A stretch of DNA of 32,275 bases from Myxococcales bacterium (GTDB taxonomy: Bacteria > Myxococcota > Myxococcia > Myxococcales > 40CM-4-68-19). Below the pieces are notes generated by a model that worked only from the letters and a program-made list of their open reading frames with translations, ran no database searches and was not told the origin of the DNA. The DNA lies in NCBI GenBank assembly GCA_020201435.1, contig JAIVGS010000221.1:1-32275 (forward strand), given 5' to 3'. The translations under genes were made by a program, and so were the position numbers. Shown in pieces: positions 3,665 to 17,615 of this stretch (positions are counted from its first letter, which is position 1; each line of letters begins with the position of its first letter).

Positions 3665-4792
3665 TTACTGCGGATCGAACGTGACCGCCTGGAGGCTGGC
3701 GATCTGGTAGTCGTTGGTCGGGTCGTAGGTGAAGCCCGTGCCCGACCGGTACTGGACCTGGACGGTGTGGGTGCCGGCCGCGAGCGTCGCGAAGTAGGTG
3801 CTCGACGTCTCGCCGTATTGCTGGCCGCCGCCGGCCACCTGCTGCGTGCCCTGGATCGACTGGCCGTCGATCGCGAGGCGGGTCACGACGTGGCCGCCGC
3901 CGAGGAACACCGAGAAGTTCCACGAGACCTCGACGACGCTCGCCGTGCTCAGCCAGACGGAGAGCCCCAGGTTCGGGATCGGGCGCCAGACGTTGTCGGC
4001 GGCGCCCTTGAACCCGGCCACCGAGACCTGCGAGGTCACGACCGGCGGGATCACGCCGCCGGCCGGACCCTGCGGACCGGTCAGGCCGGTCGAACCGGTG
4101 GCGCCGGTCGCGCCCGTGGCGCCGGTGTCGCCCTTGGGACCCTGGGGGCCGGTAGCGCCCGCGGGACCGGTCGCGCCGGTGTCGCCCTTCGGGCCCTGCG
4201 GGCCAGCGGCGCCGGTGTCGCCCTTGTCGCCCTTCGCGCCTTGCGGGCCGGCCGGACCGACGGCGCCGGTCTCGCCCGGCAGGCCCTGCGGACCGATCGG
4301 GCCCTGCGGGCCTTCCATGCCGATCGGACCCTGGGCGCCGGTCGCGCCGGTCAAGCCTTGCGAACCCTGAGGACCCGCGGGACCCTGCGGACCCGTGGCG
4401 CCGGTCGCGCCGGTCAGACCCTGCGGACCCTGCGGCCCGATCGGGCCCATCGGACCCATCGGACCAACCGCGCCGGTCGCGCCTGTGTCACCCTGCGGCC
4501 CTTGCGGACCCTGAGGGCCCTGCGGACCTTGCGGGCCCGCCGCGCCCGGGTCGCCCTGCGGACCCTGGGGACCTTGCGGGCCGACCTTGTTCCAGGAGAG
4601 CGGCGCCTCGCCGCCCTTGCAGGTGTCGGAGATCCGCGGCCGCCCGCTCGAGTCGACGCATGAGTTGATGACGTCGGTCGTGGCCGCCGCCGTCGTCGTC
4701 GCCGACGCCGCACCCTTGCCCTTTGCGGCTACAGCGGAACTGAGCAGCAGCATCGCAAGTCCAATCGGCCGAGCCATTCTGGTCGCTAGCAT
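3665..4792 (-). CDS. Secreted collagen-like protein with C-terminal globular domain
   Basis: The protein has 375 residues. The ATG at 4792 is chosen because GGGAGG lies about 5 bases upstream. A signal peptide (hydrophobic [13 protein letters not shown]) is followed by a small domain with two cysteines ([16 protein letters not shown]). Then come 58 uninterrupted Gly-X-Y triplets (residues 71-244), rich in GPQ, GAT and GDT. The C-terminal 125 residues, after a VIPP linker, are beta-rich ([30 protein letters not shown]) and probably form a jelly-roll-like trimerisation or ligand domain. Bacterial collagen-like proteins form stable triple helices without hydroxyproline and usually act at the cell surface or in the matrix. 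The gene has its own terminator. Confidence 0.88.
4061..4582 (-). repeat. Collagen Gly-X-Y coding repeat, 58 triplets
   Basis: A perfect 9-base codon-triplet periodicity encodes 58 consecutive Gly-X-Y units with no interruption (residues 71-244 of the collagen-like protein). Dominant units are GPQ, GPM/GPI, GAT, GDT and GPK. Such tracts are prone to slippage, so the repeat number may vary between strains or be miscounted in assemblies. Confidence 0.9.
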
Positions 4793-4938: not shown

Positions 4939-6156
4939 TCAGCGCACCCACGTCCGCGCACGTTCGAGAAATTCCAGGATCAACGGCGCTTTACGCTGCG
5001 AGTAAATCTGGAGCGTGCTCGCGCCCGATTCGATCGCCGCTCGCTTGGCTCCCGCGTACCGCGCGGCCTCCTCCGGATGAGCGCGCAGATAGTCGCGCAG
5101 CGCGAGCGCGTCGCGCCAGAGCGGGCCTTCCTTGATCACCACCTGGGCGTTGAAACCGACCGCGTTGCCGCGCTTGCGGAAGTAGAGCCGGCCGGGCACC
5201 CCGGCCTCGCCGCAGGCCTCGTAGTCGGGGAGCCTCAACAGCGCGGACACGTCGGGCAGGCCGACGAGCAGATCGACGATCGGCTTGGCGTCGAGCCCCG
5301 GCACCGCCGTGCTGCCGATGTGCTCGATGGCTGCTTCCGGCAGCGCCGCCCGCAGGCGCGCGATCTCCTCGGCCGCCAGGTCCGGCCAGCGCGCGTCGGG
5401 CGGCTGCACCGTGACCGGCTCGTCGAGCAGCGCGTGCTCGAGGGCGGCAGGATCGGCCAGCGCCGCCCGCGCCGCGGCCTGTTCGGCCTCCTTCTTCGAC
5501 CGCCCGCTGCCGCGTCCGAGCGCCGCGGCGTCGAGGCGCACTTCCACCTCGTACGATCGGGCGTGATCGGGCCCGTTGATCGCCAGCACCGTGTACTGCG
5601 GCACCCGCCGCCGGCTCTGGAAGAGCTGCTGCAGCTCGGTCTTCGGATCGCGCGCGAGCCCGTCGGCGCGCTCGAACAGGGGCGCGAGCATCCGCTCGAG
5701 GACTTCCAGCGCGCGCTCCATCCCGCAGCTCAGGTAGACGGCGGCGATCACCGCCTCGAGGGCATCGGCGAGGCGGCCGGCGTTCTCGCGGCCTCCGCTG
5801 CGCTGTTCGCCGCGGCCGAGCAGGAGCAGCTCGCCGAGCCCGAGCTGCCGCGCGACCAGCGCCAGCGACTCCTCGCGCACCAGCGAGGCCCGCAGCCGGG
5901 TCAGATCGCCTTCGGGGGCATCGGGAAACCGGTCGTACATCCGCCGCGCGATGAGGTACCCGAGGACCGCGTCGCCGAGGAACTCGAGCCGCTCGTTCGA
6001 TCGCAGCTGCTCGCGCGCGGGCCCCAGCGAGCGCTCGTGGACGTAGCTTCCGTGGCGCAGCGCCTCCAGCGCGACGTCGCTGCGGAGGGAACCTTCGGGC
6101 AGTCCGAGCCGGGAGGTCAGCAGCGCGACGCGCTCCTGGTCGGACAGCTCGGCCAT
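4939..6156 (-). CDS. rnc: Ribonuclease III fused to a GrpB-family domain
   Basis: The protein has 405 residues, about 175 more than a normal RNase III. Residues 1-150 are the endonuclease domain with the signature NERLEFLGD (54-62). The catalytic acids are E58, D62, D131 and E134. Residues 160-226 form the double-stranded RNA-binding domain (DPKTELQQLFQ through KKEAEQAAARAAL). Residues 235-405 match the GrpB/UPF0157 family, which belongs to the nucleotidyltransferase fold: HIGSTAVPGLDAKPIVDLLV (279-298), then a W-x-x-x-L-x-L-R-D-Y-L-R-x-H-P motif. The single frame has no stop between domains. RNase III processes rRNA and other double-stranded RNA; the GrpB part has no firmly established substrate. 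The ATG overlaps the meaB stop by one base (TGATG), so they are translationally coupled. Confidence 0.93.
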   Translation of the reverse strand: MAELSDQERVALLTSRLGLPEGSLRSDVALEALRHGSYVHERSLGPAREQLRSNERLEFLGDAVLGYLIARRMYDRFPDAPEGDLTRLRASLVREESLALVARQLGLGELLLLGRGEQRSGGRENAGRLADALEAVIAAVYLSCGMERALEVLERMLAPLFERADGLARDPKTELQQLFQSRRRVPQYTVLAINGPDHARSYEVEVRLDAAALGRGSGRSKKEAEQAAARAALADPAALEHALLDEPVTVQPPDARWPDLAAEEIARLRAALPEAAIEHIGSTAVPGLDAKPIVDLLVGLPDVSALLRLPDYEACGEAGVPGRLYFRKRGNAVGFNAQVVIKEGPLWRDALALRDYLRAHPEEAARYAGAKRAAIESGASTLQIYSQRKAPLILEFLERARTWVR

Positions 6157-9810: not shown

Positions 9811-10986
9811 TTATATCTCAACCTTTCCACGGACGGAGTGGGCGAGCGCCCACACTGCACACGCGGCGAGAGCGGCGTAACGCGCGCCCACCGTCGGAAA
9901 AAAGACGAACCGGTCGAACCAGGCGGTGATCGGCCACACCCGCTGCGATTGGATGTGCAGGCGCGAGAAGCTTGCGACGAAATCGCCGAGCGCGATCACC
10001 GAGACCGCGCTCGAGAGCCATCCCGGCAGTCCGGCGAGGGCGGCGAGCGCGACCACCCACAGCCAGTACTGCGGCGAGAAGACCTTGTTGGCCAGGAAGA
10101 AGACGCACATCAGCCCACACGATGCACGCAAGAGGTCGAGTCGTTTGGTGACGAGCTCGATGATCGCCAGCGCCAGCGCGACGGCCAGCGTGACCGCCGC
10201 TGAGATGAGGTTGGCAGTCGGCGCGAAGCCCCGCGGATCGACGCCCGCGAGCAGGTAGAGACTCGGCTCGATTTCGCGGATCTGGTTGTACCTGAAGAAC
10301 CACTCCCAGTTCTCGCGCGCCGCGAGCGCGAACGGCGCGTTCAGGACGACCGTGACGACGACGAAGATGCCGAACAGCGCCAACGCGTGGGTGAGCTTGT
10401 GGCGGAGCGCGATGAGGAGGACCAGGCCCAGGACCAGCAGCGGAAAGAACTTCGTCCACACCGCGAGCGTCAGCACCGCGACGGCGGCCTTGTCCTCGAG
10501 CTTCGCCCACAGCCAGAGGCCGACGGCGAGGGGGAGGATGCCGAAAAGGTCCCAGTTGAGGCCGGTGTACACGAGCAGCGCGGGAGAGGCCGCCCACGCC
10601 CACGGCGTCGCTTGCGGGAGCGAGGAAAGGACCCAGAGCGTGCCCAGTGCGCACAGCGCAAGTGCCAGGAATGTCACGGCAAAATAGCCCGCGCGGTCGG
10701 GTGCGAGCGCGCTCGGCCACCACATGCCGAGGCCCATCAGGACCGGGTATTCGACCTTGTCCTTGAGATACGGGAACTTGTGCGTGGTCGCGCCGCGGTC
10801 CTCGTGGAGCGCGAGGATGTCCGAGTACGCGAGGGCGCCGAACGACCACAGCCGGTACCCCCACGGCGACGGATGGCGGGTTCCCTCGGCGGTCCTGAGA
10901 TAACCCACAGCGAGGATCGCCGTGCACACCACGGCCGGAAGCGCGAACCGGCGCAGCGTCGCCCGTCGGTCAAGCGGCTGATCCAT
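9811..10986 (-). CDS. GT87/DUF2029-like polytopic membrane glycosyltransferase
   Basis: This 391-residue integral membrane protein has about nine or ten hydrophobic helices. It resembles GT-C fold enzymes of the GT87/DUF2029 type, which transfer sugars from polyprenyl-phosphate donors on the outer face of the inner membrane. The evidence is an acidic first-loop motif (YSDILALHEDRG) followed by a YPVL motif, then a later NWDLFGILPLA segment and an SPQYWLW motif. Family membership is inferred from layout and these motifs; the acceptor is unknown. It is the most upstream gene of the minus-strand run and ends nine bases before the kinase start. Its ATG lies 32 bases from a divergent lipoprotein gene. 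Confidence 0.72.
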   Translation of the reverse strand: MDQPLDRRATLRRFALPAVVCTAILAVGYLRTAEGTRHPSPWGYRLWSFGALAYSDILALHEDRGATTHKFPYLKDKVEYPVLMGLGMWWPSALAPDRAGYFAVTFLALALCALGTLWVLSSLPQATPWAWAASPALLVYTGLNWDLFGILPLAVGLWLWAKLEDKAAVAVLTLAVWTKFFPLLVLGLVLLIALRHKLTHALALFGIFVVVTVVLNAPFALAARENWEWFFRYNQIREIEPSLYLLAGVDPRGFAPTANLISAAVTLAVALALAIIELVTKRLDLLRASCGLMCVFFLANKVFSPQYWLWVVALAALAGLPGWLSSAVSVIALGDFVASFSRLHIQSQRVWPITAWFDRFVFFPTVGARYAALAACAVWALAHSVRGKVEI

Positions 10987-11017
10987 GCGCAGTCAGCGTG
11001 TCATAGTTTGCGCGTCG

Positions 11018-11566
11018 ATGAGAAAAATGATGCTGGCGGTCCTGCTCGCTGCCTGCGGCGGCTCCGACCTGAATCGCGCGTCGGTTTCGGGCAAGGTCGA
11101 GGGCACCACGCTGAACATGAGGAATTCCGCGGCCTTCGTCGTTCGGACGACGGGCACGCCGAGCATCGACGTGGTGCTCAGCAACGTCGGCGACGGCTGC
11201 GAGGCGACCGCCGCGAACCTCAAGTCGAAGCAGGTGCTGGAGCTCGGCGTGACGTCGCTCGGCGGCGCGCTGCTCGATGCCGGAACCTTCGGCGTCTACG
11301 ACCAGCAATCGGGCAACATCCCGCAGGGCACGGTCGTCTTCGCCGATTACCACAGCACCAACGAGACTTGCGCCGACACGACGCCGCCGAACACGCTCGG
11401 CGCGTCCGGCAAGGTGACGCTCGACCGGGTGACGCTCGGCGCCGGCGGCGAAGTCTCCGGCACCTTCGACCTCTTCCTCGAAAACGGCGACCATCTGAAG
11501 GGCTCGTTCGACGCGCCGGTCTGCGGCGACGGCCCCGACGCCGGCCATGACGGCGGCTGTCACTGA
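11018..11566 (+). CDS. Predicted lipoprotein of unknown function
   Basis: The protein has 182 residues. ATG 11018 is preferred over the in-frame ATG at 10985, which would overlap the divergent gene's start codon and bury the signal peptide. The N-terminus MRKMMLAVLLAACGGS is a lipoprotein signal with lipidated Cys13. The mature part is about 170 residues of beta-rich sequence (VSGKVEGTTL, AAFVVRTTG, SIDVVLSNVGDGC, GEVSGTFDLFLENG). It has three further cysteines and a Gly/His-rich end (GPDAGHDGGCH). Strands of the GTVSGTFDLTL type recur in myxobacterial surface lipoproteins. No catalytic motif is visible. Confidence 0.7.
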   Translation: MRKMMLAVLLAACGGSDLNRASVSGKVEGTTLNMRNSAAFVVRTTGTPSIDVVLSNVGDGCEATAANLKSKQVLELGVTSLGGALLDAGTFGVYDQQSGNIPQGTVVFADYHSTNETCADTTPPNTLGASGKVTLDRVTLGAGGEVSGTFDLFLENGDHLKGSFDAPVCGDGPDAGHDGGCH

Positions 11567-11607
11567 AACCTGAAGACATCTTTACGCAATTTGGCGTCGG
11601 CCGTTTG

Positions 11608-11635
11608 GGAGGCCGGCCCTTTAGGGCCGGCCTCC
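11608..11635. terminator. Strong hairpin between convergent genes
   Basis: A perfect 12-bp stem (GGAGGCCGGCCC at 11608-11619 with its complement at 11624-11635) carries a four-base loop (TTTA). It sits between the lipoprotein stop and the end of the carboxyltransferase gene, where a bidirectional terminator is expected. Neither side has a clear T-run, so it may slow polymerase or protect 3' ends. Confidence 0.55.
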
Positions 11636-11659
11636 AAGCGCTGAACTAGTGTCTTCGAA

Positions 11660-15221: not shown

Positions 15222-17615
15222 ATGCCCAAGGGCAAGCCGCGCGAACAGGGCGACACCGCGGTCGTCACCGAGAAGAAGTCGAAGACCCAGAAGCCGAAGC
15301 TGTGGAAGGTCATCCTCCACAACGACGACTTCACGACGATGGAGTTCGTCATCCACGTGCTGGAAGTCGTGTTCAATCGGACTCCGGCCGAGGCCCACGA
15401 GCTCATGCTGCAGGTACATACCCGTGGCTGGGCGCGGCTGGTCGAGCTGAAGCGCGATCTCGAGAGCCACCTGGCGGAGGCGCAGCCGCAGCTGCCGGAG
15501 GGCAGCGAGCGCGACCCGGAGCAGACGCGGGCGTTCCAGCGGGTGCTCGAGCGGGCGGCGATGCAGGTGCAGTCGAGCGGGAAGGAGACCATCGACGGCG
15601 GCAACGTGCTCGTCGCGCTCTATCGCGAGCGGGACTCGCATGCGCTCTACCTGCTCGAGAAACAAGGTGTAACGCGACTGGACCTGCTCCGGTACATCTC
15701 CCACGGCGCGCTCAAGGTGCGCGACGAGACCGGCATCCGGCCCGCCGGCGACGACGACGAGCTGCACGCGCAGCCCCAGGGCGACGACGAGGACGGCGGC
15801 CTGGCGGACGACCCACTGGCCGCTTACTGCGTCGATCTGATTTCGCGGGCGGCGGACGGTCGGATCGATCCGCTGGTCGGACGCAAGGCGGAGCTGGAGC
15901 GGACCATCCAGGTCCTCTGCCGGCGCCGCAAGAACAATCCGGTCTACGTGGGTGAAGCCGGCGTCGGAAAGACGGCGCTGGCCGAGGGGCTTGCTCTCGC
16001 CATCAACGAGCAAAAAGTACCCGAGATCCTGAAGGATGCGCCGTTGTACGCGCTCGACCTCGGCGCCCTGCTCGCCGGCACCAAGTTCCGCGGGCAGTTC
16101 GAGGAGCGTTTGAAGGCGGTGGTGAAGGCGCTCGCCGAGAAGCCGGGCGCGATCCTCTTCATCGACGAGATCCACATGCTGGTCGGGGCGGGCGCGACCT
16201 CCGGCGGCTCGATGGACGCGAGCAATCTCTTGAAGCCCGCCCTGGCGAACGGCGAGTTGCGTTGCATCGGCAGCACGACGTTCGCGGACTTCAAGGCCTC
16301 GTTCGATCGCGACAAGGCGCTCGCGCGCCGGTTCCAGAAGATCGAGGTGCTGGAGCCTTCGCGCGACGAGGCGGTCCAGATCCTCCGCGGCCTGCAGAGC
16401 CGGTACGAAGAGCACCATGGCGTGAAGTACAGCGAGGCCGCGGTCGAGGCGGCCGTCGACCTCTCGGCCAAGCACCTCGTCGACCGGCACCTGCCGGACA
16501 AGGCCATCGACGTGATGGACGAGGCCGGCGCGCTGCAGCGGATCATCCCGCCCGAGCAGCGGGTCCAGGTCATCGGCGTGCCGGAGATCGAGCAGGTGGT
16601 CGCGAAGATCGCCCGGATCCCGCCGCGGAGCGTCTCGGCCGACGACAAGACGGCCTTGAAGAGCATGGCCCCCGAGCTGAAGAAGGTGGTCTTCGGCCAG
16701 GACGCGGCGATCGAGTCGCTCGCTTCGGCCATCCTGCTCTCCCGCTCAGGCCTGGGAAATCCGACCAAACCGATCGGCAGCTTCCTCTTCAGCGGCCCGA
16801 CCGGCGTCGGCAAGACCGAGCTCGCGAAGCAGCTCGCCCGCATCATGGGCGTGCCGCTGATCCGCTTCGACATGTCGGAGTACATGGAGAAGCACACCGT
16901 TTCCCGCCTGATCGGCGCGCCTCCCGGCTACGTCGGATTCGACCAGGGCGGCCTTCTCACCGACGCGATCCGCAAGCAGCCGCACGCGGTCCTCCTGCTC
17001 GACGAGGTCGAAAAGGCGCATCCGGACGTCTTCGACATCCTGCTCCAGGTCATGGATCACGCGACCTTGACCGACAACAACGGCCGGCAGAGCGACTTCC
17101 GCCACGTCGCGCTCATCTTCACGACCAACGCCGGCGCTCGCGAGATGTCCGCGGCGCGGATGGGCTTCGGCGCCGGCACCCGCAATTTCATGGTCGGGGG
17201 GACGAAGATCGGCGAGAAGATCGCCTCCTTCGACCTCGATAGCACGGCGGGTGGCGACGCCAAGAAGGCCATCGAGCGGACGTTCTCCCCCGAGTTCCGC
17301 AACCGGCTCGACGGCTGGATCGCGTTTTCCAGCTTGCCGATGGAGATCGTGGAAAAGATCGTCGACAAGCAGGTCGACGAGCTGCGGGCGCAGCTGCGCG
17401 AGAAGAACGTCGAGCTCGAGCTCCGGCCCGACGCCCGTACGTGGTTGGCGGAAAACGGCTTTTCGCCGCAGTTCGGGGCGCGGCCGATGGCCCGGCTGAT
17501 CCAGAGCATCGTCAAGAAGCCGCTGGCGGAGCGGATTTTGTTCGGCGACCTGGAAAAGGGGGGAAAAGTCGTACTCCAGGTCAAGGACGAAAAGCTGGCT
17601 CTCGAGAAGGAATGA
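15222..17615 (+). CDS. clpA: ClpS-ClpA chimera: N-terminal half of ClpS fused to ClpA unfoldase
   Basis: The protein has 797 residues. Residues 25-70 are the first half of ClpS, with the N-degron pocket residues N34, D35, D36, M40 (HNDDFTTM) and H66 (LQVH). At about residue 70 the ClpS sequence stops and continues in frame with the middle of the ClpA N-domain (RLVELKRDLE onward, 72-161). The last third of ClpS and the first repeat of the ClpA N-domain are absent. D1 has Walker A GEAGVGKT (244-251) and Walker B ILFIDE (311-316). D2 has GPTGVGKT (525-532) and LLLDEVEKAH (591-600). ClpA unfolds substrates for ClpP; ClpS delivers N-degron proteins. No stop or frameshift is seen. A natural fusion, a deletion or a bad assembly join all remain possible. 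Confidence 0.93.
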   Translation: MPKGKPREQGDTAVVTEKKSKTQKPKLWKVILHNDDFTTMEFVIHVLEVVFNRTPAEAHELMLQVHTRGWARLVELKRDLESHLAEAQPQLPEGSERDPEQTRAFQRVLERAAMQVQSSGKETIDGGNVLVALYRERDSHALYLLEKQGVTRLDLLRYISHGALKVRDETGIRPAGDDDELHAQPQGDDEDGGLADDPLAAYCVDLISRAADGRIDPLVGRKAELERTIQVLCRRRKNNPVYVGEAGVGKTALAEGLALAINEQKVPEILKDAPLYALDLGALLAGTKFRGQFEERLKAVVKALAEKPGAILFIDEIHMLVGAGATSGGSMDASNLLKPALANGELRCIGSTTFADFKASFDRDKALARRFQKIEVLEPSRDEAVQILRGLQSRYEEHHGVKYSEAAVEAAVDLSAKHLVDRHLPDKAIDVMDEAGALQRIIPPEQRVQVIGVPEIEQVVAKIARIPPRSVSADDKTALKSMAPELKKVVFGQDAAIESLASAILLSRSGLGNPTKPIGSFLFSGPTGVGKTELAKQLARIMGVPLIRFDMSEYMEKHTVSRLIGAPPGYVGFDQGGLLTDAIRKQPHAVLLLDEVEKAHPDVFDILLQVMDHATLTDNNGRQSDFRHVALIFTTNAGAREMSAARMGFGAGTRNFMVGGTKIGEKIASFDLDSTAGGDAKKAIERTFSPEFRNRLDGWIAFSSLPMEIVEKIVDKQVDELRAQLREKNVELELRPDARTWLAENGFSPQFGARPMARLIQSIVKKPLAERILFGDLEKGGKVVLQVKDEKLALEKE

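Follow-up and report, generated by a model that had tools for sequence, protein, structure and literature searches.

An in-frame clpS-clpA chimera in a draft Myxococcales genome very probably reflects a one-off 260-bp gap in an ordinary operon

The window, a 32,275-nucleotide stretch of a Myxococcales draft genome (GCA_020201435.1, contig JAIVGS010000221.1), contains a single open reading frame in which the first part of ClpS is followed by most of ClpA. ClpS is the adaptor that delivers N-degron substrates to ClpAP, and a clean in-frame chimera of two such functionally linked neighbours, seen in one draft, resembled an evolved fusion; the case is of value chiefly as a warning. Comparison with relatives exposes a private 260-bp gap behind the apparent fusion, and no new protein machine. 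We consider it very probable that the locus is the ordinary clpS-clpA operon of the genus with a one-off gap, the product of misassembly or of a very recent deletion, and that nothing new works there. The ancestral operon would have consisted of two genes overlapping by ATGA, with ClpS feeding N-degron substrates to ClpAP; 260 bp would then have gone in one draft, 260 modulo 3 being such that the ClpA frame happens to be restored.

The assembled sequence does contain the chimera, whose parts are as follows.

15222..17615, + strand: chimeric clpS'-'clpA open reading frame, 797 amino acids (open frame, Pfam ClpS and NCBIfam ClpA)
15222..15426, + strand: 5' part of clpS, residues 1 to ~68-70, encoding an N-terminal extension, the first strand, two helices and pocket residues N34, D35, D36, M40 and H66 (PF02617 profile positions 1-51; 92% DNA identity to the clpS of relative G002; ClpS alignment)
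15426..15427, no strand: deletion junction (alignment to congeners; no bridging direct repeat of at least 8 nt)
15427..15716, + strand: remainder of the clpA N-domain, equivalent to E. coli ClpA 49 to ~144, i.e. the end of repeat 1 and repeat 2 (alignment to PDB 1lzw chain B)
15810..17612, + strand: ClpA D1 and D2 AAA+ modules (Pfam AAA, AAA_lid_9, AAA_2 and ClpB_D2-small)

All 797 codons form one clean, uninterrupted frame, in which ClpS residues 1-70 lead directly into ClpA from E. coli-equivalent residue 49, and the identity of both halves is far beyond chance. The Pfam ClpS profile PF02617 matches residues 23-73 with E-values of 4e-19 to 6e-20, using just positions 1-51 of its 80, while the curated NCBIfam ClpA model TIGR02639 scores 1003.6 bits, above its cut-off of 993.15. 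Residues 71-165 align to chain residues 49-144 of E. coli ClpA (PDB 1lzw chain B). Both AAA+ modules have intact Walker A motifs (GEAGVGKT and GPTGVGKT), the C-terminal D2-small domain is present and, by eye, the translation has a Met-Gly-Phe in the region of D2 where the IGL-like ClpP-binding loop would be expected.

Measured against the known proteins, the chimera shares with ClpS (PF02617; E. coli 1mbu/3o2b) residues 1-70, comprising a disordered N-terminal extension and all of the N-degron pocket residues (the NDD of N34, D35 and D36, with M40 and H66), but lacks residues 71-106, about a third of the protein, with strands two and three, the third helix and the conserved E79, A81, K84 and P98 of the C-terminal half. 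It does not, therefore, contain a complete ClpS core of three strands and three helices (~80 profile positions). With ClpA (TIGR02639; E. coli 1ksf/6w1z) it shares everything from E. coli-equivalent residue 49 to the end, whereas residues 1-48 are replaced by the ClpS fragment, leaving the two-repeat N-domain incomplete. The sequence-only reading had described an in-frame ClpS-ClpA chimera that keeps its pocket residues, and in both respects it was right; it was also right that the C-terminal third of ClpS is lost, but the first N-domain repeat of ClpA, which it took to be missing altogether, is gone mostly and not wholly.

Alignment of the locus to those of congeners shows what is missing. 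At 15426/15427 the window is shorter than G002, G004 and G005 by 260 bp, and than G001 by 263 bp; the alignment to G006 is split otherwise, yet covers a similar gap. In all five same-genus genomes with an assembled locus, clpS and clpA are separate genes (the G003 draft has no usable copy of the locus), and the same is true of same-family genomes. The chimera, used as a query, is matched in two pieces in each of the five congeners, by a separate ClpS over residues 1-71 and by ClpA from residue 70 on. In these relatives the end of clpS overlaps the start of clpA by ATGA, clpS of G002 has 106 codons, and the stretch missing from the window runs from about clpS codon 69 to about clpA codon 48. 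The neighbourhood is collinear with that of G005, so the window contains the native clpS-clpA locus and not an extra copy. The congener operons (e.g. VBLM01000386.1 and VBLC01000053.1) occupy this same locus, with DNA identity between the window and the nearest congener of 92% in clpS and ~86% in clpA; they are longer by 260-263 bp and comprise two genes, as compared with one fused frame in the window. These alignments support the proposal of the sequence-only reading that the chimera arose by a deletion spanning the boundary between two ancestral neighbours, clpS and clpA. Its placing of the join near 15429-15435, with roughly 300 bp gone, stands as to the deletion and is refined as to position and size. 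Separate genes in close relatives, which it had named as one half of what would speak against a genuine fusion, are what we find.

The fused junction is not conserved, and is private to the source assembly (G000). Allowing up to three mismatches, the junction sequence occurs in one of seven genus genomes, G000 itself, and is absent from the other six. Among 120 ClpS-matching open reading frames from the window and related loci, the window's is the only one in which ClpS leads into a ClpA frame; in two others, of more than 900 amino acids, an open stretch comes first and ClpS lies at the C-terminal end. A scan of the contigs of related genomes, from which 80 loci were kept, yielded no second ClpS-ClpA fusion, nor was one found among the matches listed, the stronger ones, in a ClpS search of 195 genomes across the phylum, nor in the viral contigs searched. 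The titles, abstracts and passages of the literature that we searched contain no example of a natural ClpS-ClpA fusion. One candidate second fusion, ClpS in a 697-amino-acid frame of G012 (L027), was rejected: ClpS is near the C-terminal end of that frame, and the clpA frame is separate, ~220 bp away.

Structure prediction does not support folding of the fused N-terminus. AlphaFold2 gave chimera residues 1-165 a mean pLDDT of 47.7 (79 sequences), with values of 30-49 and no strands in the ClpS half. The alignment necessarily mixes two families and the ClpA part itself reached only a moderate 57-68; we therefore regard the low pLDDT as supporting and not as conclusive. Intact ClpS of G002, in contrast, was modelled with a pLDDT of 86.9 overall and 97-99 in the core, with three strands (24 sequences). 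Relative to that model the chimera is without strand 70-77, helix 78-94 and strand 100-105, i.e. two of three strands and the third helix, a part that also holds G74, E79, A81, K84 and P98, invariant or near-invariant across relatives. The folded core of E. coli ClpS extends from residue 26 to residue 106 (PMC12493166). The ClpS half of the chimera would thus not be expected to fold.

Substitutions on the window's branch since its split from G002, polarised with four outgroups, bear on the age of the join. The ClpS part shows seven synonymous and no nonsynonymous changes, a small count, while the two ClpA parts show synonymous against nonsynonymous changes of 24 to 2 and 62 to 6, the usual strong constraint. 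Had the ClpS half lost its fold long ago, changes should by now have started to accumulate; its unaltered amino acids indicate that decay has had no time to set in. The ClpS count fits either a deletion much younger than the G002 split or no deletion in the organism at all.

These results leave little room for the suggestion of the sequence-only reading that a conserved fusion might form a self-delivering N-degron unfoldase, in which a ring-borne ClpS pocket would hand N-degron substrates to its own pore. The kept pocket residues and the open frame are in its favour, as is the constraint on the ClpS half, unchanged from that preceding the deletion; but that pre-existing constraint accounts for the lack of change, two of three ClpS strands, the third helix and invariant residues are lost, no stable fold was predicted for the N-terminal 165 residues, and the same junction was found in none of the other six genus genomes and none of the related loci. 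We regard such a machine as extremely improbable, and would give an equally slight chance to a real natural fusion whose residual ClpS half still helps to recruit substrates to the ClpA ring. The one-off gap that we favour is not free of difficulties of its own. The join is in frame, which would happen by chance one time in three, and the 797-amino-acid frame is clean; the sampled rest of the assembly, ~109 kb compared with G005, showed no broken conserved gene; and a repeat-free junction is not the commonest signature of k-mer misassembly.

A join so private and so young would be either a local assembly or chimeric-read error, with slightly better than even probability, or a very recent real deletion, with slightly less. 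That clpS and clpA are ordinary, separate genes in the organism and were joined only in the draft, by a local misassembly or chimeric read, we judge to be evenly balanced between true and false. G000 is a draft of 363 contigs, with 96% completeness and 3.2% contamination; its relatives in public records are metagenome-assembled 'Deltaproteobacteria bacterium' genomes, and it too is apparently metagenome-assembled, from environmental DNA. Misassemblies are documented in k-mer-based metagenome bins generally (PMC8172020), all congeners are normal at the locus, and a ClpS half with no amino acid replaced since the G002 split is in keeping with a gap made in assembly. In addition, clpA in the sister draft, G002, is itself broken by a 50-bp frame-shifting gap (L054, VBLM01000386.1, 1147-1148), which lies in the D1 module shortly before the first Walker A motif; the codons downstream are otherwise intact. 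That gap is unrelated to the window's deletion and shows that one-off gaps in conserved coding DNA occur in drafts of this group; it belongs to a different genome and is no proof of error in G000. Against an assembly error, the two ends are not linked by any direct repeat of at least 8 nt, so neither collapse of a repeat nor recombination between repeats explains the join, and the ~109 kb of G000 aligned to G005, on which the base rate of broken genes rests, revealed no other broken conserved gene, from which it follows that the assembly is not generally bad. (Candidate split genes in G000 were rejected as artificial long frames running over several real genes in GC-rich DNA.) A search of all 363 contigs for the missing 260 bp found the paralogous ClpS and otherwise nothing beyond short matches at chance level, and a complete copy of ClpS1 is absent from the assembly. 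The rival view, that the sampled strain genuinely and recently lost this DNA, so that its clpA-linked ClpS is inactive and the N-domain of its ClpA damaged, is a serious contender that we place somewhat short of an even chance. The clean frame and the otherwise unbroken conserved genes argue for it, as do the intact D1 and D2 modules and the ClpP encoded on contig C122; the single draft, the junction's absence from any second genome and a ClpS half devoid of decay argue against it.

Should the deletion be real, the adaptor half would be unable to fold and the N-domain on which ClpS docks would be damaged, leaving at best a ClpA with a crippled N-domain whose D1 and D2 rings could still unfold substrates for ClpP without an adaptor. 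Precedent comes from Leptospira, in which ClpA without an N-domain retains ClpP pairing while adaptor control is lost, and from N-domain deletions of E. coli ClpA, which keep variable activity (PMC12493166). By analogy, since such proteins retain pairing or activity, the likeliest outcome would be a ClpA blind to its adaptor, with ClpAP still degrading adaptor-independent substrates. Like those constructs, the chimera has ring modules without an intact N-domain; the laboratory truncations are clean, however, whereas the chimera keeps a ClpS fragment and half of the N-domain. Of the ClpA residues named as ClpS contacts (PMC12493166), E23 and E28 fall within the lost 1-48, while T81 and R86 are kept according to the alignment. 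The sequence-only reading had proposed a search for a separate clpS elsewhere in the genome, and a full-length ClpS paralogue with NDD, H66 and ETK is indeed encoded on contig C22 (9282-9518); G001, G002, G004, G005 and G006 likewise have two ClpS matches each. After a real deletion this second ClpS would no longer dock normally, and a natural ClpA with a damaged N-domain, alongside a retained second ClpS, would offer a modestly interesting view of how ClpAP manages when its adaptor is lost.

Elsewhere in the window, ~670 bp at about 10986-11657 are without counterpart in G005, whose locus is otherwise collinear; they contain open reading frames on either strand and have no Pfam match. The - strand encodes, at 3665-4792, a collagen-like protein whose triple-helix repeats occur many times in tandem. 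At 4939-6156, also on the - strand, RNase III, a double-stranded RNA-binding domain and a GrpB domain are joined in a single reading frame; the same order is found in one 404-amino-acid open reading frame of G005 (L174, 7107-8321, - strand), and this fusion, unlike that of clpS and clpA, is common to the window and G005.
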